Assembly: GCA_019096065.1 (NCBI GenBank)
Contig: JAGUCH010000001.1
Location: forward strand, 10,478,001 to 10,542,000
From: Paracyclopina nana
Lineage: Eukaryota; Arthropoda; Copepoda; Cyclopoida; Cyclopettidae
Length of the DNA stretch: 64,000 nucleotides
Direction of reading: 5' to 3'
The translations under genes and the position numbers were made by a program. The notes under the pieces were generated by a model. The model ran no database searches. It saw only the letters and a list, made by a program, of their open reading frames with translations, and was not told the origin of the DNA. This document shows, piece by piece, positions 5,307-34,900 of the stretch (positions are counted from its first letter, which is position 1; every line of letters begins with the position of its first letter).

Positions 5307-8300
5307 ATGGGGAACAAACAAACAGTGTTCACGGAGGAGCAGCTCGAAAATTATGTGGTAATTTCCCCCAAAACATAAATCAGTGCCTTGAGCACTCTTT
5401 ATTTATACACTTTGAAAATGAATGTTATGGAAACCTAATTTCTTAGCTGATAATTAAATTTTTTTGGGGCCATAGGGCAATCAAAGTTGTAACAGCGCAC
5501 ATATGGCATTTTTGTCAACTTAGCGGTGGGTTCACTACATACGGCAGTGAAGCGAAAATCCCTGTATTTTGCTGAGATTTGGCGTGCGCTCGCATCTACC
5601 GTACAATAATGGATTTTATTCGTCACATGTGAAGAAATAATGGCCATTATTGTACAGTGGGCAGCTTCAGAGTTCTTCTTCAATTAAAAAAAAGACTTGA
5701 CTGGGATTCGAACCCGGGTCTACCGAGTGAAAGGTCTGCACTTTGCCAGTGTACTAACAGAACTTACTTAACACATTGTACGGTGGTTCATTAAGTGGTT
5801 TTCACGCGCATGATAAATTCTGCCAAATCGCCAATTCTCATTTGCCACCAACTTTCAGCTTCTTTTTGGGAGTTTCTTAGCCATGAAAATAGCTCAAATT
5901 CGTGAAATTAGGTAGAAATTCGTCCTTAAAGTTTGTCTGAAACTGTTTCCATGAGGGAAAACAGTAGACCAGCCAATTTTGTCACTAAAAGTCAATTTTT
6001 TGCTTAGAGCCCTGTGAAAATTGGCTCCGACTATTATGAGTGTTATTATCTGTCTTTCAAATCATTTTTATCACAGAAAGACTTCCAAAAAAGGAATAAA
6101 AAAGTAACATCTCTTTAAATTTCAAGCCAAATGCGACTTTTGGCACTTTTTTGAAAAAGGGGATGGCCATATAAAAACTAGTACGTTTATTTGGGAGCCC
6201 TGTGCATATACTTTGAGCAGGCGACCTGAAATTTGGCACGTGCATTCCTCTCCCCATCGCGCATGATCTTTATTAGCGGCATTTTTTGATTTTCCGCCAA
6301 ATGACAGACTTCCATTTTTCTCCGCTCCCAATTGACGAAATGAGCTGAATTTTTGTGTGCGGCTCCCATTTTGCCAGGGCTACAACTTTTATAAATGACT
6401 TTTTTCTCGATTCGGACTCCCAAGGGCACTTGTTTATGAGCGTTTTTCGTATTTTTGCAATATCTCCAGCAGGCCTCAACCAAATGTGCTGAATTTTTGT
6501 GAACAACTTTGATTTTACATTTCCCACAACTTTTATTACTACATTTTTTGCGCCAAGCAACTTTTCTGAGTAGCTATTTATGAGCCAATTCTTTAATATC
6601 TACAGCAGACATCAAACAAATGAGCTCAATTTCAGTTAAATGACCTTTTCCTACATATTTTATTCATGACTCTTATTCAAAAAATGACTTTCATTTGTGG
6701 CTACTTTAAGATGCTTTTGTATTTTATAGATTGAAAAGATTTAACCCACTTTTGATTTCCTTTCACTCTTATATTGAGCTAGGTAGCAATACTTTTTGTT
6801 ACCAATATGTACATGATAGGTAACTTGTCAGTAATCAGACTTCTTCACATAAAGAAACACCTGGGCTCTCCCAATGTTCCTGGTTAGCCTCAATGGCAAG
6901 TCATCATTGACCTCAAAATACTGGTTCTCACTTTTGATGATTGAGTAATAGTGGCCTGAGGTGACACTCCCAGTGTGGACAATTGCTGCCACAAGGCTGT
7001 AATTTACAAAAATCCCACCTCTTGCTGCAACTGTTAGATCTCCACCAAGTTGAATGATGCTACCAATTTTTCTTGATGCTTGATTATCCTTTTCCCAAGT
7101 GGACCTTGGAATGGAGACAGCAATGATTGGAGTGGCATCCTCAAAAAATGTTGCATTGGTTAATGAGAACATTTTGAGGCAAGCTTGGCATTGGGCTTCA
7201 GTCTCTCCTCTCAGGAATCTTTCAAACTCTTCTTGCAGGCTCACTGATGGAAAAGGTATTGAGAAGAAGGCATTTTGCACAGGCTCAGTTGGGCTTGATA
7301 CACTTCCAGCAGTGCAAGAGCAGTTTCCTCTGCTTGAGACTGTGTATGTTGTAGGTTGAGCAATTCTTGCACTCAAGCATCCAATGCTTGATTGTGCCAT
7401 TGAGGCAAAGAAGTCTTCTGTGGACATGTAACTTGTCAGCAAGCTTTCATCCAAAGCAAGGTTGTTGACAAATGTTTTCAAAGCTGAGAGGCCATTGATC
7501 ACCAAGTTTTCTTTCAGATGGGCCCAAATGTTGATTGCAAAATCAAAGCCTTGTCAAGGTTCAGGCAAATTAGGTGCTTCATCTTGGTCCATAAAATCAC
7601 TTGTTTTCCTGACAGCCCACAGAAATGCAGTTAATCCTGCACTAAACCAGCAAAGCTTCTTTGTGGTGTTTCTCAACTAAAGCAGGTTCAATTGTGAAAA
7701 AGTTGTTTCTGAAAAGCAATTGCTAAACATTAGCTGTTTTTTAGCATGTGTGTTAAGATTCCACTTACCAGGCATTGACTCATATCCATAAGAGGCATCC
7801 AACAAAACTTGAGGTGCCATACTGACTGAAGAAGCATTCATGGAATCCTCTGCCACCAGATGCAGAGACTTCTCTTGGATATCAGCCCCATCATGGTGAC
7901 TTGTAGATAGATCATCATAGTCCATCCTAGCCTCTTCATCACTCAAATCTGGTTGAGATGCTTCCTCATCCCCTGAAGAGCTCTCAAGAGTTCCTTGATT
8001 GCTGTCATTGTCATCATCATCATCTCCATCTGCTTTGGAGTCTTTGAGCCCATCCCCTGAGGCCACTGGGAAAGCCTGTGGTATCAAATCAGAGATTAAA
8101 AGACTTGTATTACTTCCTTTTCACCTTAGCATATGCATAGGAAGGCTGCAAATTTGTAGGATTTCTTGTGTCAGTTAGGGCCATCCTGACTACTTTGTTG
8201 GGAGTATACCAGTCTGGACAAGTGACCACAATTGTTTCAGCAATAACATGCCCTCCTGTTGACATGGGTCTTGAGCACACATCTGGCACATCACTTTTGG

Positions 8301-11300
8301 AGCTGCATCTCCAACCATACAGTGACTGCAACTCATTTTCCAAGTGGAGCAAATTGTTTGGCTCATTTGCAAAGCACAACATGGTGTGCTTGTCAAATTT
8401 TCTAGAAAGAAAAGTTTGGTCACATGAGGTCTTCATTTAAAGCAGAATATACCTTGAAGCCATGCTTCTTTTTGCAGATGGGAAAGAGCAATAAACTGCT
8501 AGGACACCTTGCTGAGGCCAATTCCCCATGGTAATCTCATCCCATTCATTGGGAGCATCAGGCATATGTCGCACATGAAGAAGGAGGTCCTGAGGAAGCT
8601 CTTCAAGTGCATCTTGGTGCTTGTTGAAATCCTCAAAGGTATCCTCAATGGCCTTTAGCTCCAGCCTTCTTGCCAAGGTCAGGTAGTAAGAAGCTCTTTC
8701 CAGTCGATATGGTCCCATTGCTAACAAATACAAAAGCAGCACTGAAAACTTTCCAAAAAAGTGAAAATATCCATGGAAAATCAAGGCCTTTAGATGTATG
8801 AATTTATCACTACAAGTCCTTAATTCTTGGGAAAAAACAGTGGCCACACGCATGCGTTGAGCTCACGGAAAATGTGAAAAATTGGCAAGGTGTGTTACTC
8901 TAGCACAAGGCAGCGGCTCACTGAGGGCTACAGCAAGATGAGTCTTATGCTTCACAGCATCCTACTGGTCTCAGGATCTCACTGGTCCCAGGGTCTCACT
9001 AATCCCAGCGTCCCACTGGTCCCAGGGTCTCACTGGTCCCAAGCGACCCACTGGTCCAGGGGTCTCACTAGTCCCGGGTTCCCTTTGGTTCAGGTGTCTG
9101 GGGTCCTACTAGTCCTGGAGTCACACTGGTCCAGGGGTCTCACTGGTCCAGGGCGTCCTACCGGTCCAGGAGTCTCACTAGTCCAGGGGTCCTTTTGGTT
9201 CAGGGGTCCAGGGTCCCACTGGTCCCTGGGTCCCACTAGTCCCGGCGTCCCACTGGTCTTACCTAACTTTCTGTTATTTTCTTTAACTTAACAATGTTAG
9301 CTAACTTTCTGTTAACACAGTTTCAAAAAAGTCACTTCATAGCTCATAGTAAAAAATTCCAGTACCAGTGGGACGGCCGGGATCTGGGACCAATGGGATG
9401 CTAGGACCAGTGGGATGATGGGTCCAGTGGGACGCTTAGACCAGCAAGATGCTGGGACCTGTGGGACCCAGGGACTAGTGGAACACTAGGAGCAGTGGGA
9501 TGCTGGAACCCAGGACCTGTGGGACATAGCATGAGATGATAGCACATTTTGTGAAACACTGACAAGTGGGACCCCATGGCAAGTTGGACTCTGTGACCAG
9601 TGTGACACTGTGACATTGTCGAGTGCATGTGTGGTGTTATGAAAATTGGATCAGCTGTCTCGACTTATGGGAATCATCTCATGTAATGCTAGTGAGCCCT
9701 TGCCTTGCCTAGTGTGAAACACCAGGCGGCCATACTTGGATCAACTAGGACATACTGTCCTTGGATAGTCTGCAACAGATTGCCCTTGGATAGACTAACA
9801 GAACTCATAGTCCCTGGATCGACAAGACAGATTGTCCTTGGATGTACTATGAAGACAAACAGTTTGTGGATCAAAGAAATGGATAGTCCTTGGATTGACT
9901 ACTATGACTTAACAGGATTTGGGTCGACTAGAATGAACTGTGCTTGGATATACTGACATAACTGACTGTCCCTGCATTGAAAAACAGATCGTACTTGGAT
10001 TGAAAGCTAGAACGTACTGTACAATGTTAGAATTCAACAAAAACTGTTGTTCTATCCAAGGACTGTATGTTCTCATAGACGATCCAAGGACGATTTGTCT
10101 TGTCAATCCAAGTACAGCTCATTTTTCTTGAATAACCAAATAAATGTCAGTCCTGGTCTATCCAAGGACTGTGTGCTCTGACAGTTGATCCAAGGGTGAT
10201 CTGTCTCATCCATCTGGGGACTGTCCGTAGTAATAGTCAATCCAGGGATGAAATGTTTTGTCAACACTAGGCTAATTTGTCATAGTCTATTCATGGACGA
10301 TCTGTTTTCGATCCAAGGGTAAGAGTCCGAAACACCTTGCTAATTTTTCACTCTCCAATTTCCGTGAGCTGGACTCATGCGTGTGGCCAAAATAGTTTTG
10401 AAAAGAGCAAGAGCTAAGTAAAGTACAAAAAAGTGAAAAATTAAACTGTAAACAACCAATTGAAGAACCAAACTTGTGTCAGTGTGCACTGTTTGGACAG
10501 CTAGGGGCGAGTTCTAACTTAAGTGTCCTTTAGTTTACATTTAGAATGTAAAATATTTTTATAATTAGTTGACTCAGCTTGACTTGGAGCTTTGCCCAAC
10601 ATTTAGAGCACTATTTACTTCCCTTTTGACAGGACAACAAAGTCTGCATAGCCAGCCAACAACAACCAAAATAATTTAATTAAAAAGCCTTGACATCGAT
10701 AACTTGTAGTGATCAGGTCAAAGATATGCCTAATAACTAGTGGCGGACTCTTACCCTTGGATCAACAACAGAAGGTCCTTGGATAGACCATGATGAATCA
10801 GACTTGGATTGACAAAATGAATCATACCATACTTGACATCAATATTAGAATCCTGATGCTCAGCATGAGTAAAATAAAAGTAGCTGCTTATAAAAATTAA
10901 TTGCCCTAAAAAAGAGACTAGACTCATCAAAATGAAACTAGATTTTGAGCTTGACTCCCAAGTAATTATTTTATATACTGTAATACGATTTCCTTGTGTT
11001 ATAATTCAGTTTACCGATCCGACTCAGCTCTTTTATGTCACATTTCTTTCTAAGCAATTTGGGGGATATTAAATACTTAACGGCCCTGGAATCAAATTTG
11101 AGGGATTTTAAGCAATTTAATGCCACAAATAATTAATGGATATAATCCAAATGACAAAGAAGTTGGAAAAAAAAGAGGATCATCCAAGGTTTGAACTTAA
11201 GACAGTTAGATTAGCAATCCAATGCTCTAACCACTGAGTTATGGAAACATCATGAAGATTGGGTGCTATGTACAGGACTTTAACCATAGCTTAACCCAGA

Positions 11301-22782: not shown

Positions 22783-24729
22783 CTATGTAGATTCTGCCAA
22801 GGTCATGACATCGACGCCACTTAGCTCGTCTCGGGTATTGAGTCCCCAAGGAAGAAGAGTCATCAACTCGTGCTGCCAGTAGCCCTCTCTTCTCTGTAAA
22901 CCATCACTGCTCATTGTGTGGTCAATGATCTGCAAGAGATTGTTGACCTTAAACTAACAAGGGTGATAAGCCATTTTTAGCTAGCCTTGCACCATTCGAG
23001 CGAAAAGAACTAATGAGCCAAGTCAACAACTTACTTGAATGCGAAAGCTGGTGTAGCCGCAGGCTCCCGCAAAGTGTTGTCCCAAATGGGACGACTCTTT
23101 GTCAATTTCTCTTCTGTGGCCATAGTGCCTCTGCTTCAACGTCTGGGCCGTCTTGCCAACATACTGCTTCTTACATTTGTCGCACGTAACCTATGAGAGA
23201 CTTGGGAATCAGAACACAATACCCACGTCGCAGCGCATAGCTACTTACTAAATAGATGACATTCTTGGTGTGGCAGCCAACACTGGGCATGAACTTGTAC
23301 TCCTTTCCTGTCATGGTACTTCTGAAACTTGTGCCAGTGATGAGCATGTCGCAAGTCACACAATTATCATTTTCACATTTGCTGTTTCCTGGCCTGGCAT
23401 GGGGCCGACTGCCATAGTTCGAGGAAGGAGAGGCTGGTCTTTCAGAGATTTCTAATGATGGATAGCTCGGATTCAGTGGAAGTTGTTGCTCATAGTATGG
23501 CGGCGGCGGTGAGCCCGGAGTTGTGACAGCTGTTTGAATTGTTGGCCTTCTGCGGCTGCCACTGCTATGGCCAATCGAGGGAACAGACGGCGTAATCGCG
23601 TCCCAAGTCCTCACTGCGTCCCTTAAAACTTTCACGTGATGTACGTACACCCAGCTAAAGGCCGCATTCATAAGGAGAAGGAGCACTGGGATCAAGTAAA
23701 GGATGAGACGGTTTGTTGCCTCCAGAATAACAGGATGAGATTTGTAATTGTGACTGAAAAGGTGCGTTTCCATGAGAGCCGCGTATGAGATGAGGCTTAG
23801 CAAGTTGAGTAGGCTGAAAAGGCCGTGGCTCAAACGAGCTTGCTTCAAGAGGCTTTCCTGTAAAAAAGGAATCAGCACACTCAAAGCAAAGTTTTATTGC
23901 CGCTACCTGAGTCACTCTCGCCCTTCGCACTTCAGATACCGAGTGTCCAGCTGTATTGGCTGCAAAGTTGCAAAAATTCGTTCCTGGGCTGTCACCTAGC
24001 TGCTTTGAATGTCCAGATGGAAACGTCAGCAGGGTGTAGCTATAGAAAGCGCTTTTCCACCCGAATCCGAAGCATTTGAAGGCAATCAAGTGTATTAGGT
24101 AAAACGTGGACGCAATGCCTATTGCCCAGTACGGTGTAACGGCAAACATCAGTGATCCGACGTACATCCGGAACAAAATGCCAGAAGTGCTTACAGCCAA
24201 GCTAAGCATAAATTTTCCAGCGCTTCTTCCTCCGTCCCATTTTTCGTCGTTGTAGTAAGTCGATGTCACAATGATGGAGACAAAAGAGGAAAAAATGGAC
24301 ACCAAGCTGAGGACTCCCCAGAAATCCGGATCCCTGAGAAATTACAATTAAGATTAATAACCTCAACTGTCAAGAGTAACTATAGTACCTAAAGACGGCT
24401 TCAAACTTGACGACACCTCTCCAAATTGCAGTGCATTGTAAAAGCAACTGGGGTATAGACTCAAACAAGGCCTCGAAGGTGGTGTTGATCAGCGAAAAGG
24501 TCAAAATGCAGAATTTCTTTGAGCTCATCGGATCGCCTCTCTGGCATTTGCCAATCAAAACGTAAATGCAAGCGGCAAGGAAGCAGCAAAATGGGAAGAC
24601 CAAAGTCAAAACGCCCCATATTGGATGTCCAGAGTAAATCAAGCTGCTGGCGTGTATGATGTCAGTGACAAAGTCGATGGGGCTAATAAATGCCCTCAAA
24701 AAAAGGTAAGCAGTCCAGGGTCCAATCAT
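22783..24729 (-). CDS. XK-related membrane protein fused to a C-terminal GIY-YIG endonuclease domain
   Basis: Exons 24729-24389, 24333-23907, 23857-23249, 23190-23035 and 22929-22783 join in frame to 559 aa. Residues 1 to about 350 are XK/XKR-type: SPIDFVTDI, the hallmark ESIPQLLLQ (about 89-97) and multiple membrane helices ending LYLIPVLLLLMNAAFSWVY. XK-related proteins act as or support phospholipid scramblases. A Ser/Pro-rich linker (GSPPPPYYEQQLPLNPSYP) leads to CENDNCVTCDMLITGTSF and TMTGKEYKF, then VIYLVTCDKCKKQYVGKT (GIY and YIG equivalents, Tyr457 and Tyr469), QRHYGH (Arg480, His481, His484), RREGYWQHEL (Glu526) and GLNTRDE (Asn542). CxxC plus HxxxH inside the domain is the zinc-finger-like arrangement of Penelope-type endonucleases. 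The fusion lies within exon 3. Untranslated exons probably lie at about 24780-25060. All GIY-YIG key residues are present, so activity is plausible but unproven. Confidence 0.9.
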
Positions 24730-25332
24730 TTTCTGGAAATAATTAACATAAAGTCAATAAATGTGAAATCATTGACTTGGTTCACTTACAATTTCACCAT
24801 TTGTTTTGGACTTTTTCCAAGGCCAGCAGCAACCTTGAGAAGAAAGGAAGGCCGGAAGAGCAAAATGCGAGAGAGAGTGAGAGAGAGCAAAATTTGTTTG
24901 ATCAATCAGCGACCTGAAATCAGATTTTTATTTCATTCAACTCACTTCAGTCGCATAAGTTATTCAAAAATATGCATGAAAGAGGCTGAATTTTTACCTG
25001 CCAATCCGTTAGCAAAGTTAGTAAGACGAAAAATCGCAGAATTCGGTTGAAAATAAAGTCAGCTGATTAGCTTTTAAAAACAACGCAAACTGACGAGCGT
25101 CTTCAACAAAATTTAATTTTCATGAATTTGTAAGTTGTTATTTATGTTTGAAAAGATCCCGAAGGTTACTTTTGTAGGTATATAATCTTTGTTATGTTTT
25201 ATATTTCTTATGTTGACACTAAAAAATTGCTTTTTTTATTTCATGGTTTTATTATTTTACTCTTCAAGTTTGTTGATATATTTGCTGAAGTAGGCAGCGG
25301 CCCATCAACAAAGAGCTGAAAACTTGATTATA
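24730..25332. promoter_or_regulatory. Bidirectional promoter region, XK-related/GIY-YIG and bublin genes
   Basis: About 600 bp separate two divergent start codons. The minus strand shows probable 5' UTR exons: one ending TTGGCAG before gtaaaa (near 25018) and one of about 44 nt after a long CT-rich tract (near 24832-24789) followed by gtaagt. No core promoter element was identified with confidence. Confidence 0.45.
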
Positions 25333-25716
25333 ATGGTAAATGAAGAAGAGCCTCCAAAGCCAGAATTACCAGAGGAACCGGAGAAGATGGACGAAGATCT
25401 TGCTATTGGAAGTGTTGATAATGAAAATGACGACGAAGCCGACGAAGAAGGAGATGAATTGGACGACTTTGACGATGCTGGTGAGTCACGTGACTTGGGT
25501 ATCATAGATTGCTAGCTGTTACTAATAATTTTCTTAGCTTACCGAGCTCTGGATGCTCAGTTGGATCAGCTCAACTCTGTTCTGGATGTCCTGGAGGAAA
25601 GGAATGATCGAATACATGGTCAAATGAAAGAAATGCTCAATGCAAAGAAAGAAAGCAACCACAATAATGACCATGACCGACCGTATCCAGATGGCAGCTC
25701 CGGAACTTCAGCTTAG
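25333..25716 (+). CDS. bbln: Bublin coiled-coil protein (UPF0184/C9orf16 family)
   Basis: Two exons, 25333-25480 and 25538-25716, join in phase 1 to 108 aa. The N-terminal half is strongly acidic (ENDDEADEEGDELDDFDD). The second exon gives the family signature AYRALDAQLDQLNSVLDVLEE followed by RNDRIHGQMKEML, a short coiled coil comparable to human bublin (INSMLDQINSCLDHLEE). The nematode family member is an intermediate-filament-associated protein needed for normal intestinal lumen shape. The start is the ATG at 25333; it is in frame with two upstream codons of no importance. Head to head with the XK-related gene. Confidence 0.85.
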
Positions 25717-29300: not shown

Positions 29301-31923
29301 TGAAGGTAGCATTCGCTAATGACAATGCATTTTTGCCAGAAATATCCCAATCACGCAGAAAGAGAGTGCGAGGAAATCTGAGGAAGAATTTGCGAGCTTC
29401 TAACGCAGCTGTGCATTATTTCCAAAAAAAACCAAGATTCCATGCATGTATCGTATAGAATAAACACGGCATATTAGCAGTATCGAGCACTTAGTTATGT
29501 CGTCTGCTGTCATTGCAGCTTGTTTTTCTCCCTGTGCGACACCACATTGAATGGAAATCTGAAACAGATACAGCCTTTTGAAAAGAGTCTCCAGCTCGAA
29601 GCTGTCATTTAGCAGTGCGAAGAGGCCAGAGAAATCCAATCAAGCAGCTTTGTGTAAACCCTGTTGATTCTAGGTTGAAATGTCACAATAGCAGCAGAGG
29701 GGTAAAAGGTTTCCTCAAGGATTTCCCAACAGAATTGCTCTGGTAGCCCAACCATGATTGCGCTCGACAGAAATTGGGGCTCGAAGTAGTCCTCGTTTTG
29801 GAGGAACAACATCTGTCTAGCTTGGCTACAGCAGTCATGTGAGAAGAATTATAAAAGTACCTTGACTCAAGGTAGTTTATATAGCACACGTTTTCACACT
29901 GTGGCTGGCTGGGATCGAAAAGTTTCGATGCACAGCTAAAACTGGATTCGAGATGTGTTACCCCCCAAAATAGCGTACTTATGATGGCAAAAATCTGCGC
30001 TTCACTAGATGATGGCGGAAGTCGTTTGGCGGCCATTTCTACCCAGTGTGAACTTTATACTTGCTTGGTAACTGCCATGAGTTCACATTCGACTACCCTC
30101 CTTTGTTTGGGAAAATAGGACTTTTTTAATTTCACCTTTTTACTCGCTACTTGTCTTTTCTCCCGTAGCCTTTTACATTTAGCTGCAATCAAGCCCAGCC
30201 CTTGAATCCGACATTTAAAGCAATTACACATGTACGCATTAAAACGAAATGCACCGAAATCAACCTTGACTATACTGGTTGCACTTTTTGACACAAATCC
30301 ACCAATATATGGTGCATCTTACTTTTATGCTGACCCATTTAACAACAGCTCGATTCTGCCATTACGTAGCACTCAACAATTTGCGGCAATTTTCCAGTTA
30401 ATCCCCAAAGCCATCACATTGCAGACGTAATGGTCTTCCTTGGTTTTGATGATCATTGTTTTTTGCGCCATTTTCTTGGCTGGATCTGATGGCTTGCTAG
30501 CTGCGCATCATCAGATAGCTTATATTGGAGTGTATGACAAAATATCCAACATAACTGGGATAATTGTGTAGATCAATAATTCTCATCAATGATAGATAAT
30601 GTCATGTATACTGGCTCCTCTAGGAAAACACATCTTTTTTGGCCACCACCATCATCGTCGGTGATGTGGTGGCTCATGAACAATGGTAGCTAATTTTGGG
30701 AAGAAGGATATCCATGCCGTGTTAATGATTGAGCACCGAAGGATGGATGTGAATGAGCAAGGACGCGTTACATGATATGGCATTGACTGCGTTTCTTCGA
30801 CGGGTCAATTTCCAACAATTTCCCCGTCATAATTCATTTTCTGTTGGGCCTTGACAAAATGTCCTCACTAATCAGCAATAGCTACCACGAGCTGATAAAC
30901 TGATATGGTCGATGCAAAAGCAAAAAGAAACGCATATCTCAAAGATGCCTGAAAAAGGTGGTCTTCGCTCGAGACGCCCCTTTTTGAAAGTGATGCGTGT
31001 TGTTATGAGCTTCGTACAACGTAATGTGTAACGGCACCTAGGTTGACATCTCGCTGTCATGCATCAGAATTAGAATCTGAAAGTTGGGGAAGCTGCTGTC
31101 ACTCGCGAGCTAGTATCATTTTCATACGTCTCCATTGATAAATTCGATCTCGAATCGAAATGTGAGACCCAGCTCTATGGCTCCCATATCTCATACAATG
31201 ATGAGTAGCAAAGTCAGCATCCGGGTGTAGCATGCAGCCATAGAAAAGAAAGATGCATGCTAAGCTGTTTGCTACGACAGAGTGTAGTTCTACTATCTGA
31301 ATGGAGGCTAGCCTGCAACCAAGATGGCTGAGAGGAAAAGAAAGACGAAGAAACCCAATTAACGATGAGGAAACCGTCATTACAATACTACCATGGCCGA
31401 GGGGCATCAATAAAAAATAGTAGCCAAGCAATATCCTACCTGTATGCGTTCTGAGGTGAGCCTTAAGGTGTGATGACTTGCCGTAGACCTTGCCACAGCC
31501 ATCATGTTGGCAACGATGGGTTTTCAGCTTTTGTGGCGCCCCACCAGACGCGCTCGCAGCTGACAAGCTGACCGCTGAACTGCTGTGCAGGCCTGTGGCA
31601 GGCTCGGCCAAGACGACAAGTTTGGACTTGTCATCAAGGTGAGGGGGGAAGTGGGGCACTGGATCTTGCCTGACCCGCTTTAGATCTGCCAGGATCCTGG
31701 CTATCATAAAGAGGTTAGAAGGGTTGCTGTTGTTGCCGCAATTGTTGTTGTTGTTGGCTGCACCAGATAAACAACTACTGTCAGGCTTCAGGCTTAGATC
31801 CAGGGGGGCGGGGGGTAAGGGGGCGTGCACCACCGCTGGTTTGGCCATGTGCTTTTTTGAGGTTGAGTGCTGAGACATTGCCACGAGACAATGGGCTGCA
31901 AAGATGTCTTGATTGACGTCCAT
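26332..31923 (-). CDS. Kruppel-like transcription factor, KLF9/13/14/16 subfamily
   Basis: Three exons, 31923-31440, 26949-26799 and 26548-26332, join in frame to 283 aa. The N-terminus [17 protein letters not shown] matches the Sin3-interacting motif of KLF9/13-type repressors (AAQCLVSIS in KLF9). A Pro- and Asn-rich middle holds PLDLSLKP, similar to a CtBP-type PxDLS motif. Three C2H2 fingers follow: [37 protein letters not shown] and [18 protein letters not shown], separated by HTGE(R/K) linkers. These fingers bind GC/CACCC boxes. The tail is Ser/Glu-rich. Introns interrupt finger 1/2 and finger 3, and intron 1 is about 4.5 kb. Nuclear repressor/activator by family. Confidence 0.92.
26950..31439. 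other. KLF intron 1, nothing recognised apart from low-complexity DNA
   Basis: About 4.5 kb. A GA-repeat is at about 27152-27170. The segment 28430-29300 is more GC-rich with CpG (gcgctcgctctcg, cagcgagagacg) and could hold regulatory elements. Open frames on both strands (for example 29683-30036 minus) have no family motif. Confidence 0.45.
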
Positions 31924-34900
31924 GGTTCATAACATGGTTTAATGCCTTGATTAAGGATCTTTACTGAAAGACTTTGATCTGACTACTGAATAACTAACAG
32001 CTTCAAAAAGTGGGAGGAGGGGGCCAAGAGAGCACTCACTTATGTTCTGCTGCACACCTCCGTCAATTTCAGGCCGCTCGCTTCTTGGCTAGGGTCGACG
32101 AAACTGGTAGCACAGTGTGAACTACATTCCTGAATAGGAAGTTTATCATCGAGTAATTGTGACGATTCCGCATCTCTGTCAAATGAACGAATAATTGGGC
32201 ATAATCAAGGTTTTAAAAACATAGGATCATACGCCTATCATAGACTGGAATGGGAATACTGTAATAAGTCCGTAATGTTAAAAGTCCTGCTATTAAAAAT
32301 CCCCATGTAAAAAGTCCTAATATATTTAAAAGTCCTGATGTAAAAAGTAAACTCTACAAAGACTATTTTTGTACAAATATCAATAATTGTTCGATAAAAT
32401 ATTAAGGCATGTATTTCATTTGTGAAACAAAGTTACCGATTGAATAATGTTTGACTTATCAATGTAAGTCTTCTCTACTGTTTGAATTTGCTCCAATGAA
32501 GCAAGCAATTTTTCGAACCTTTTTGTAGCAGCTTATTGATTACCTATCTCTCTAAATACACTTCTCTGGCTATGTTTGACTTGTCAATGTTAGAGTCTTC
32601 TCTACTTTTTAGCTTTTAGCCTTAGATTTTTTCCAATTTTTTACTTCGGTGGTACGAAAGTTAACTGATACATAACGACATGAAACTTGGGAAAAATTCT
32701 GGTTGGGAGAGTTAATATTAGAATCACAAAAAGATATAGATACGCTCTTTAATGGACTTGCATTAAGGTTTATATTATTGCTTTTATGGTATTTTATAAA
32801 AATTGGGACTTTTGACATCCAGTCTTCACATAAAATGACTTTTGATATCTGGCCTTAACATGAGCGGACTTTTAGTATCTGGACTTTTTTGATCTGGACA
32901 TTTCACATAGCGGACTTTTTACAGTACATTCACTGGAATTAATCATGGGAAAGCTTTCCGCTTAATTTTCTGTAAGATATGCCTTAAATTTTGTGGACCG
33001 CAGGCAATGCGAGCGAGCTCATCCAAGTTGACCCAGCGATCTAGCCCGCTCCTTCGCCGCGAATTCAGAGTGCGCGAGCTCAGCACATTTGACCCAGAGT
33101 TGCAGCCTGTACCGTCCGGTTCGGCCGCTTATCGTCAAAGACGCATCAATATGAACTCGTAAACAAGGCCATACCTATCCTACCGGCGAATTATGTAACA
33201 TTTTGGAGGTCCCGTCGCTACCTGCATCAGACCTCCAATAATTTCTTATGAATCAGTTTTTCTCATTATTTTTTTCGCAAGGAGGGAATTTGTCAAGTGT
33301 AACTTGTACGTACATAGGCGGATATTGATAATTATGCTCCTTTTAATCGAAGAGCAACAAAAAATTATGTCAATTTCTGGCCGGAACTTGCGAACTGCTC
33401 AGCTCTCTCAGCTAATGGTAGTAGAGACTAGCCCTTCAGAGATATTTCATGTTTCCAGCATGTTAGAAAACTTTAGAGGAACTTCAAAATTTTCTTGCTA
33501 GTCTAATTTACCGCCTCTGGTTGATCAATGTACGGTTTCCCCCTCTAGTCACCAAGTTGTACTATAAAAGATTTTGAATTTATAAGGCAAATCAGCAGAC
33601 AGAAATTAATAAACCAGGCTTACCATTACCAAAATAGAAGCCTTCTTTCTAGAAAATAAATCTTCATTAGCAAATCAGACACCTGAAATCTGAAAATAGG
33701 CCTAACCAAGATGATCTATAGTATAAGGTGAGCTCGTGTTTTAGGTTCACTTTAGCACTCGGCCAGACTATGCTGTGGTAAGCTTCTAGGCGAAATTTTA
33801 ATAGAGCACTGTGTGTTATGCATTTTCACATCTAAGAATTCCGCCAGATATTGACTCAAAATGCCAAATGGGCTTTGAGTTGGATTTTTTTCTGAGCATA
33901 TCTGGTAGCTCAACAAGAAAGCGTGAGATTAGCCGGCTTGCCAAGAATTTCACGCGCAAATCACGCCCTCGCGTTATGAAGTAAATGACATTAGCACCCC
34001 CTTCACTTACACGAAATAACTAAATTAAGTTGAGTTATTTCAAGTTGCTTTTCACCGTCAACATTAGCCATACGATATGGGGCTGGGCCTAACCAAGGGC
34101 CAAACATGGCCAACCGTAAGAGTAGTTGGTGTTTACAACACTTTTGGGAGTTTGAGTTGCTGATTCTAGAATTGTCCTTAACTATGAATTTGCCTCTTGG
34201 CTCCTGCTCTGCAAAGCTTAATCCAAGCAAAGATCAGCTCGTTTTTTGTGTGTGTCAGTACAAGGATCTAATTGCGGGGGCCCACCGTAGGCTGACAATT
34301 CTAAAACAGTTTTGAAAATCCAGTACAACATCTTTAGCCGTAACTATGCGTTGCAAGAGTTTCGTCAACCCTAGCAGCGTAATTGCGTGGCTCACAGCTG
34401 TTCTGGAGTGTTGAGTGCAACGAGCGCAAGTCCCGGATAGACTTAGAAGAAGCTCGAGCCAAGCAAGGCAGCTGGCTTCCAATATCGGCTCGTTGCTCGC
34501 CGCTCGTCCGTTTGCCGCACTTTTTCAAACGCGCACCACCATCGGGGGAACAGAGGCACCAGATCGTGGCTACTTTTTGCTGCATTTGACAACCATCCCT
34601 GCGAGAGTTATTTTTGGGGACACCATTGAGATGTGGCTTTCTCCACTGCCTAAGGACTCCACGCATTGATGCATAGGTATTTTATGCACGCGGACTGATT
34701 TGGCCTTGCAACGCTGCCATTTTCCTCGCATGGTGGTGCTACGTAATGAACAGCTGACTGAGTGGTAGAGTGCATGCGTGCAGCAGTGGTAGGGAGGCTT
34801 GACAAAAGCTGCCTAGCTCCGCAAGCTGGCCGCTGCCGCATGCACGCACGGTGCCGAGAGAGTCGGAGGCTAGGCCTGCATGCATGAATTTGCTCATTAG

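Follow-up and report, generated by a model that had tools for sequence, protein, structure and literature searches.

A gene family with copepod members joining an XK-related-fold membrane protein to a Penelope-type GIY-YIG endonuclease

A minus-strand gene at positions 24729-22783 of a 64,000-nt stretch of the Paracyclopina nana genome (GCA_019096065.1, contig JAGUCH010000001.1, 10,478,001-10,542,000) almost certainly represents a conserved host fusion of an XK-related membrane protein with the endonuclease of a Penelope-like element (PLE). The stretch is hereafter referred to as the window, and all positions without further designation are given in it. The gene comprises five coding exons separated by GT-AG introns and specifies a product of 559 aa followed by a stop codon. 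Both halves stem from known families, and their combination, an XKR fold with a DNA endonuclease, is rated as new. Literature searches for GIY-YIG with XK-related proteins, GIY-YIG with copepods and XK-related proteins with copepods, in which subscription papers were poorly covered, listed a restriction-modification review, papers unrelated by title and opening of the abstract, and a sea-lice vaccine study, respectively, and returned no protein of this architecture; within this coverage, no counterpart was found for a DNA endonuclease attached to a polytopic lipid-scramblase fold. An earlier note on this DNA, drawn up from the sequence alone, likewise knew of no such protein.

Coding exon 1 (24389-24729, aa 1-113) specifies the first three long predicted helices of the XK-related part, including D19, D23, E86 and E90. 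Its start is supported by the relatives P0003 and P0004, which begin with MGPW at the equivalent position of the alignment. Splice sites, alignment and predicted helices assign further XK membrane helices to exon 2 (23907-24333, aa 114-256). Exon 3 (23249-23857, aa 257-459) joins in one open frame without a stop the final membrane helices (248-289 and 306-344), a proline-rich linker (346-412), the cysteine segment preceding the GIY-YIG core (413-454, with C417-x4-C422-x2-C425 and T439-G-K) and the start of the GIY motif with Y458, in agreement with the earlier note. According to coordinates computed from the exon map, the linker is encoded by 23390-23590 and contains PPPPY, a PPxY-type motif (aa 373-377, 23495-23509), and YPSL, a YPxL-type motif (aa 388-391, 23453-23464). 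A phase-0 intron after L459 (23191-23248) is followed by exon 4 (23035-23190, aa 460-511), which encodes C462, C465, QYVG (468-471), R480, HYGHRRE (481-487) and H498. After a second phase-0 intron behind Q511 (22930-23034), exon 5 (22783-22929, aa 512-559 and stop) provides R525-E526, N542 and the C-terminus. The last two introns thus both reside within the nuclease module; they are defined by splice sites and by relatives breaking off at the same places. Exon map and intron check agree with one continuous protein, and QYVG, Arg480, Glu526 and Asn542 are found where the earlier note had located them.

The Pfam GIY-YIG model (PF01541) matched the spliced 559-aa protein with 27.7 bits (cut-off 22.6, E 3.3e-6). 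The GIY-YIG core fold was recovered in the predicted structure of the tail, which was of low confidence in the full-length model and was folded separately. For the membrane part, the Pfam XK-related model (PF09815) yielded 20.0 bits (E 3.7e-4), below the curated cut-off of 24.8, and the XK label is therefore taken mainly from comparison of the predicted structure, which agrees with the XKR fold. By this comparison and by its motifs, the window protein is a divergent XKR-fold protein, in keeping with the XK-related identity initially suggested. A reverse transcriptase (RT), ankyrin repeats and a LEM domain found no Pfam match in the window protein up to E 10. Since no RT is present in the same open reading frame (ORF), we regard the tail as derived from a PLE nuclease and the protein itself as not being a PLE.

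The earlier note had proposed a search for orthologues, and this search returned a family. With the whole protein as query, 7995 candidates were scored and 16 matches obtained, of which 14 cover both parts; with tail words, 25 of 76 candidates matched, and 24 of these cover both. In total, 25 relatives carry the two parts in the same order, including P0015, a Trinity transcript obtained with the whole-protein query only, and P0014, a protein of the salmon louse Lepeophtheirus salmonis. P0003 and P0004 break off at an intron place, and P0001, P0002, P0011, P0013 and P0018 lack some of the N-terminus. P0006, which ends inside the XK part, was included in alignment A1 and dropped from A2. In the full-length tree, the window protein groups with P0001-P0005 (support 100/99). 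A search restricted to short proteins gave 44 matches, one of which is LOC111712333 of Eurytemora carolleeae. The entry of this species, P0030, is 216 aa long and consists of linker and tail alone; its model may be truncated, and its nearest tail relative, P0018, carries membrane segments. The two named relatives, E. carolleeae and L. salmonis, are both copepods, one a calanoid and one a siphonostomatoid.

Patterns placed 47 of 72 returned proteins at Q511 and 50 at L459. Exact exit from the family sequence at the intron places of the window gene was observed for 14 proteins at Q511 and for 10 at L459, all of which continue with valine. The family residue at the Q511 exit is isoleucine and rarely valine, such that valine in 14/14 indicates a GT donor in phase 0. 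Valine alone says little at L459, where the family has valine or isoleucine anyway; the next residue, however, is serine or arginine in 10/10, as GT-x-AG donors would give. The rows that exit at either place are probably unspliced or genomic, and the introns of the tail appear old and shared. Together with the 25 relatives and the conservation described below, these intron places support an old domestication of a retroelement nuclease and not a fresh insertion, as had been surmised from the single locus.

Across the 26 sequences, mean pairwise identity amounts to 0.617 in the tail and 0.308 in the XK part, each averaged over 325 pairs, and to 0.268 in the linker, averaged over 291 pairs; the tail exceeds the XK part in 325/325 pairs. 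Judged by these identities, the tail and not the scramblase part is the constant core of the family. Y458, Y469, G471, R480, H484, E487, H498, C422, C425, C451, C462 and C465 are invariant in 26/26 sequences, and E526 and N542 are kept in all 24 rows that reach these positions. The CxxxxCxxC arrangement described in the earlier note is present in the window protein, but only C422 and C425 are family-wide; C417 is substituted in several relatives. The catalytic set Tyr, Tyr, Arg, Glu and Asn of I-TevI type, matched to I-TevI via a near-constant offset, is invariant wherever its five positions are present; in I-TevI these residues serve catalysis, E75A being named in the title of 1mk0. Such conservation is what selection for a working nuclease would give, the linker providing a weakly constrained comparison within the same proteins, and the tail is very probably an active nuclease.

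The source of the tail was traced with a profile built from 27 fusion tails, from which P0003 and P0004 were excluded as they run into the intron. The C-terminal part of P0028, a PLE bearing an RT, scored 103.7 bits, that of P0016 98.9 bits, the PLE-type fragments P0038, P0044, P0046 and P0059 102.5-134.8 bits and P0062 70.9 bits. Along with the GIY-YIG match above its cut-off, these scores corroborate the Penelope-type assignment made at the outset. Note that P0016 is labelled PLE-type by its listed PF28514 and PF26215, which it shares with P0028, hmmscan having given GIY-YIG alone, and that P0038 and P0046, short pieces showing no RT, are presumed to be PLE-type from their endonuclease and a linker pattern that we associate with PLEs. 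P0038 is 43% identical to P0001 over 140 columns, reaching through the upstream cysteine segment, and the window tail itself is an endonuclease of PLE type with this upstream segment. PLE GIY-YIG endonucleases and the window tail have in common the cysteine segment, F-x-S-x-x-T-G-x-x-Y, IYLVTC-x-x-C-x-x-QYVGKT and IQIID blocks in colinear order, and pieces of the P0038 type also share RHxGHRREI and CGY. Unlike a PLE, the window gene has no RT, is fused to a membrane protein, contains two apparently shared introns and was found in one copy in the genome. In the trees, the branching order between P0038, P0044, P0046, P0059 and the fusion tails is not resolved, so that there may have been one capture or several, and in either direction. 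A single clade of fusion tails separate from all PLEs is unsupported; its bootstrap frequencies were 6% and 8% (200 trees), the second tail tree having been calculated without the SLX1-like frame of the same genome and without P0062. The latter (227 aa) is a Penelope-like GIY-YIG piece joined to C2H2-type zinc fingers (Pfam below cut-off) and possibly another captured PLE endonuclease. In the window family, the host would have retained a Penelope-like endonuclease as an enzyme of its own. A study dedicated to this question in a bdelloid rotifer reports no strong evidence of intact PLE ORFs exapted as genes (PMC3846280). Ancient Penelope-derived fossils are reported for the human genome (PMC9004415), none of which we noticed, in the text available, to be an endonuclease.

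Within the 92-Mb P. nana genome (10 contigs), searches with the tail and with the membrane part each matched only the present locus. Other XKR-type genes are represented by 16 PF09815 exon matches at 8 places, and the tail search found such a tail on none of them. The genome-wide PF01541 search found only one frame (L012, E 1.1e-14), which we take to be SLX1-like. It too belongs to the GIY-YIG family, but scores 0.1 bits with the tail profile and, as far as its open frame is visible, lacks a membrane part, and origin of the tail from this host gene was rejected on the basis of that score. L012 (G000:C9 ~5964920-5965165) adjoins several similar cysteine-rich segments that look RING/PHD-like by eye (among them ORFs 139-387, 546-854 and 882-1442) and appear tandemly duplicated. 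LEM-3_GIY-YIG (PF22945) had no match in the genome at E 1, with exons searched singly; such genome-wide Pfam absences are soft because domains split by introns escape these searches. The PLE-type queries P0028, which bears an RT, and P0016 detected nothing in the genome beyond the tail of the present gene. The view that no RT lies nearby is upheld to this extent, although with 5 and 2 candidates scored and no RT family model employed, divergent elements could have been missed. The endonuclease fragment P0046 matched the present locus and, weakly (E 0.016), a site at G000:C4:5722143-5722367 inside a 474-aa open frame.

The linkers vary in length between 27 and 127 residues and are rich in short motifs. 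P(S/T)AP occurs in 19/26 linkers, PPxY in 12/26 and YPx1-3L in 10/26, compared with means of 1.34-1.36, 2.09 and 1.51, respectively, when residues were shuffled within each linker. At least one kind of motif is present in 23/26 linkers and at least two kinds in 13/26 (shuffle mean 0.32), while the same motifs in reversed or permuted form match 0-2 of the 26. PSAP is the commonest exact 4-mer (16/26). P(S/T)AP is distributed over 7 of 8 clades drawn from the tree, a spread that 0/2000 shuffles reach, and in four linkers YPxL is directly joined to PSAP or PTAP (YPHLPSAP, YPYLPSAP, YPQLPSAP, YPALPTAP). Late-domain motifs of these kinds bind NEDD4-type ligases, TSG101 and ALIX and recruit the budding machinery (PMC6874086, PMC2958808). 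The P. nana genome encodes UEV domains. On balance, the motif content leads us to consider it somewhat more probable that the linkers steer the protein via ESCRT and NEDD4-type partners than that they do not.

For the membrane part, a comparison with Xkr8 is instructive, in which exposure of phosphatidylserine is strongly lowered by the exchanges D26A, D30A, K134A, E137A, E141A and R183A (PMC8500837). From spacing and the patterns D-x3-D and E-x3-E-x2-PQL, D19, D23, E86 and E90 of the window protein would be the counterparts of Xkr8 D26, D30, E137 and E141. These patterns have matching stretches in XKR9 and partly in XKR4; the alignments concerned are weak (E 0.17 and 0.0073), and the presumed place of K134 is taken by T83. 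The full set of four acids is restricted to the window protein, P0001, P0003 and P0004 (P0002 lacks the N-terminus). Across the family, an acidic residue is found at D19 in 18/22, at D23 in 20/22, at E86 in 6/25 and at E90 in 8/25 sequences. Lipid scrambling may thus persist in the clade of the window protein but is doubtful as, and probably not, a constant function of the family. In comparison with XKR8, XKR9 and XKR4, the C-terminal plug and caspase site are exchanged for linker and nuclease, and the acids that the third helix contributes to the path are mostly lost in relatives outside the window clade.

Taken together, these observations can be explained by an XKR-anchored PLE endonuclease that is addressed by its linker to ESCRT sites and cuts exposed DNA there, a reading that we consider more likely than not as a whole. 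The C-terminal tail of XKR8 is cytoplasmic (PMC10938166), from which we place the nuclease on the cytosolic face of the membrane. By this analogy with XKR8, the XKR-fold domain would serve as an anchor whose C-terminal end points into the cytosol, and a cytosol-facing anchor is highly probable. GIY-YIG enzymes are metal-dependent. The tail would accordingly act as a metal-dependent DNA endonuclease held at this membrane face, and the flexible linker would draw the protein, via PPxY to NEDD4-type ligases, P(S/T)AP to TSG101 and YPxL to ALIX, to ESCRT sites. There, membranes close around or beside DNA, in abscission, sealing of the nuclear envelope, ruptured micronuclei and budding, and exposed DNA could be cut. 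Through the linker, the remodelling of membranes and the cutting of DNA would be directly connected. TREX1, too, is a DNA nuclease moored to membranes on their cytosolic side; it is an exonuclease with a single tail anchor, however, and the window protein a GIY-YIG endonuclease on an XKR-fold domain. Some copepods eliminate chromatin. It is conceivable, though improbable in its entirety, that copepods made a PLE endonuclease into an ESCRT-addressed scramblase-fold cutter that clears DNA caught where membranes close, in the role of LEM-3/ANKLE1 but with an architecture unrelated to theirs, and that it may have been recruited for programmed DNA elimination in species that eliminate chromatin. 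LEM-3/ANKLE1 is a host GIY-YIG nuclease that processes chromatin bridges at the midbody, a defined site to which its non-catalytic parts take it (PMC5820297, PMC10131833); TREX1 is also named as a bridge-processing nuclease (PMC10131833). The window protein differs from LEM-3/ANKLE1 in lacking ankyrin and LEM parts, in being embedded in the membrane and in carrying a nuclease of PLE type.

Several points weigh against this proposal, beginning with the sub-threshold XK-related score of the window protein. Across the 26 aligned members, Pfam at E 0.01 detects PF01541 in 18/26 and PF09815 in 8/26, the others being placed by alignment. With its intron-split domains, the present locus was missed when the two models were run against the whole genome. 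The splicing of the P. nana gene is deduced from genomic DNA, and most relatives are environmental contigs whose exons are presumed to be joined by splicing. The window linker has PPPY and YPSL, yet no P(S/T)AP. Strict YPxL is weak (5/26, shuffle mean 0.55, maximum 5), PPxY is limited to 2/8 clades, and 3/26 linkers (P0014 from the salmon louse, P0015 and P0027) are devoid of any motif. The motif test was conceived after the sequences had been seen, the relatives are not independent of each other, and such motifs serve plain turnover as well. That the substrate is DNA caught at closing membranes is conjecture, and rather doubtful.

In principle, the linker motifs could govern just trafficking and lysosomal turnover by NEDD4-type ubiquitylation and multivesicular body sorting, with the nuclease acting elsewhere or once freed by proteolysis. 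Enrichment of PPxY and P(S/T)AP fits this equally well, but the conserved core is the tail and not the membrane part, and a conserved caspase-type site, the only cleavage pattern examined, is lacking (3/26 linkers, 1.43 by shuffling); we regard this explanation as rather unlikely. Less probable still is a defence enzyme, a membrane-held nuclease that destroys viral or retroelement DNA in the cytosol or enters budding particles with the help of its late-domain motifs. Recruitment of budding machinery by such motifs (PMC6874086, PMC2958808) would suit this role, as would the fast divergence of an XK part next to a nuclease that does not diverge. On the other hand, only one copy was found in the genome. 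Many defence genes show fast change in their effector domains, which would speak against a defence role for a slowly changing tail.

An apoptotic module, in which one protein scrambles phosphatidylserine and cleaves DNA after a caspase has freed the tail, is improbable. XKR8 and XKR9 are activated by caspase at the C-terminal tail (PMC10938166, PMC8298096), and the window protein retains the acids thought to match Xkr8 D26, D30, E137 and E141. The counts given above for E86 and E90, the confinement of the full set to four proteins and T83 at the K134 place do not fit a shared scrambling function, however, and the pattern [DE]xxD[GASTN] occurs in only 3/26 linkers, versus 1.43 by shuffling (maximum 8), with none in the window linker. 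On these linker counts, the idea put forward in the earlier note, that a caspase releases the tail during cell death, is not supported. To the same small degree, we consider a catalytically idle tail retained as a DNA- or zinc-binding adaptor: C422, C425, C451, C462 and C465 could be structural, but without activity some catalytic positions should have been lost, and these are invariant where present. That a wrong gene model has merged adjacent genes, or has taken in a recently inserted retroelement, is barely credible, even with splicing read from DNA, given both domains in one exon without a stop, the same order in 25 relatives including the transcript P0015, apparently shared intron places and two PLE queries that found no PLE reverse transcriptase in the genome. 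The earlier note is partly supported overall; it had missed the wide family, the tail as its constant core and the ESCRT/NEDD4-type motifs of the linker.

Elsewhere in the window, a marginal tRNA-like match lies at 11184-11241 on the minus strand (29.4, gathering score 29), where ARAGORN made no call. An open frame at 31099-31926 (minus) contains a single C2H2 zinc finger with a KLF/SP look by reading (PF00096, 21.9 bits, below cut-off), and 6828-7553 (minus) encodes a partial ubiquitin carboxyl-terminal hydrolase (PF00443, 37.5 bits). The neighbour of the fusion gene in the opposite direction, at 25294-25716 (plus), consists of an acidic exon without a Pfam match followed by a coiled-coil-like exon, and presumably resembles the small coiled-coil protein bublin/BBLN.
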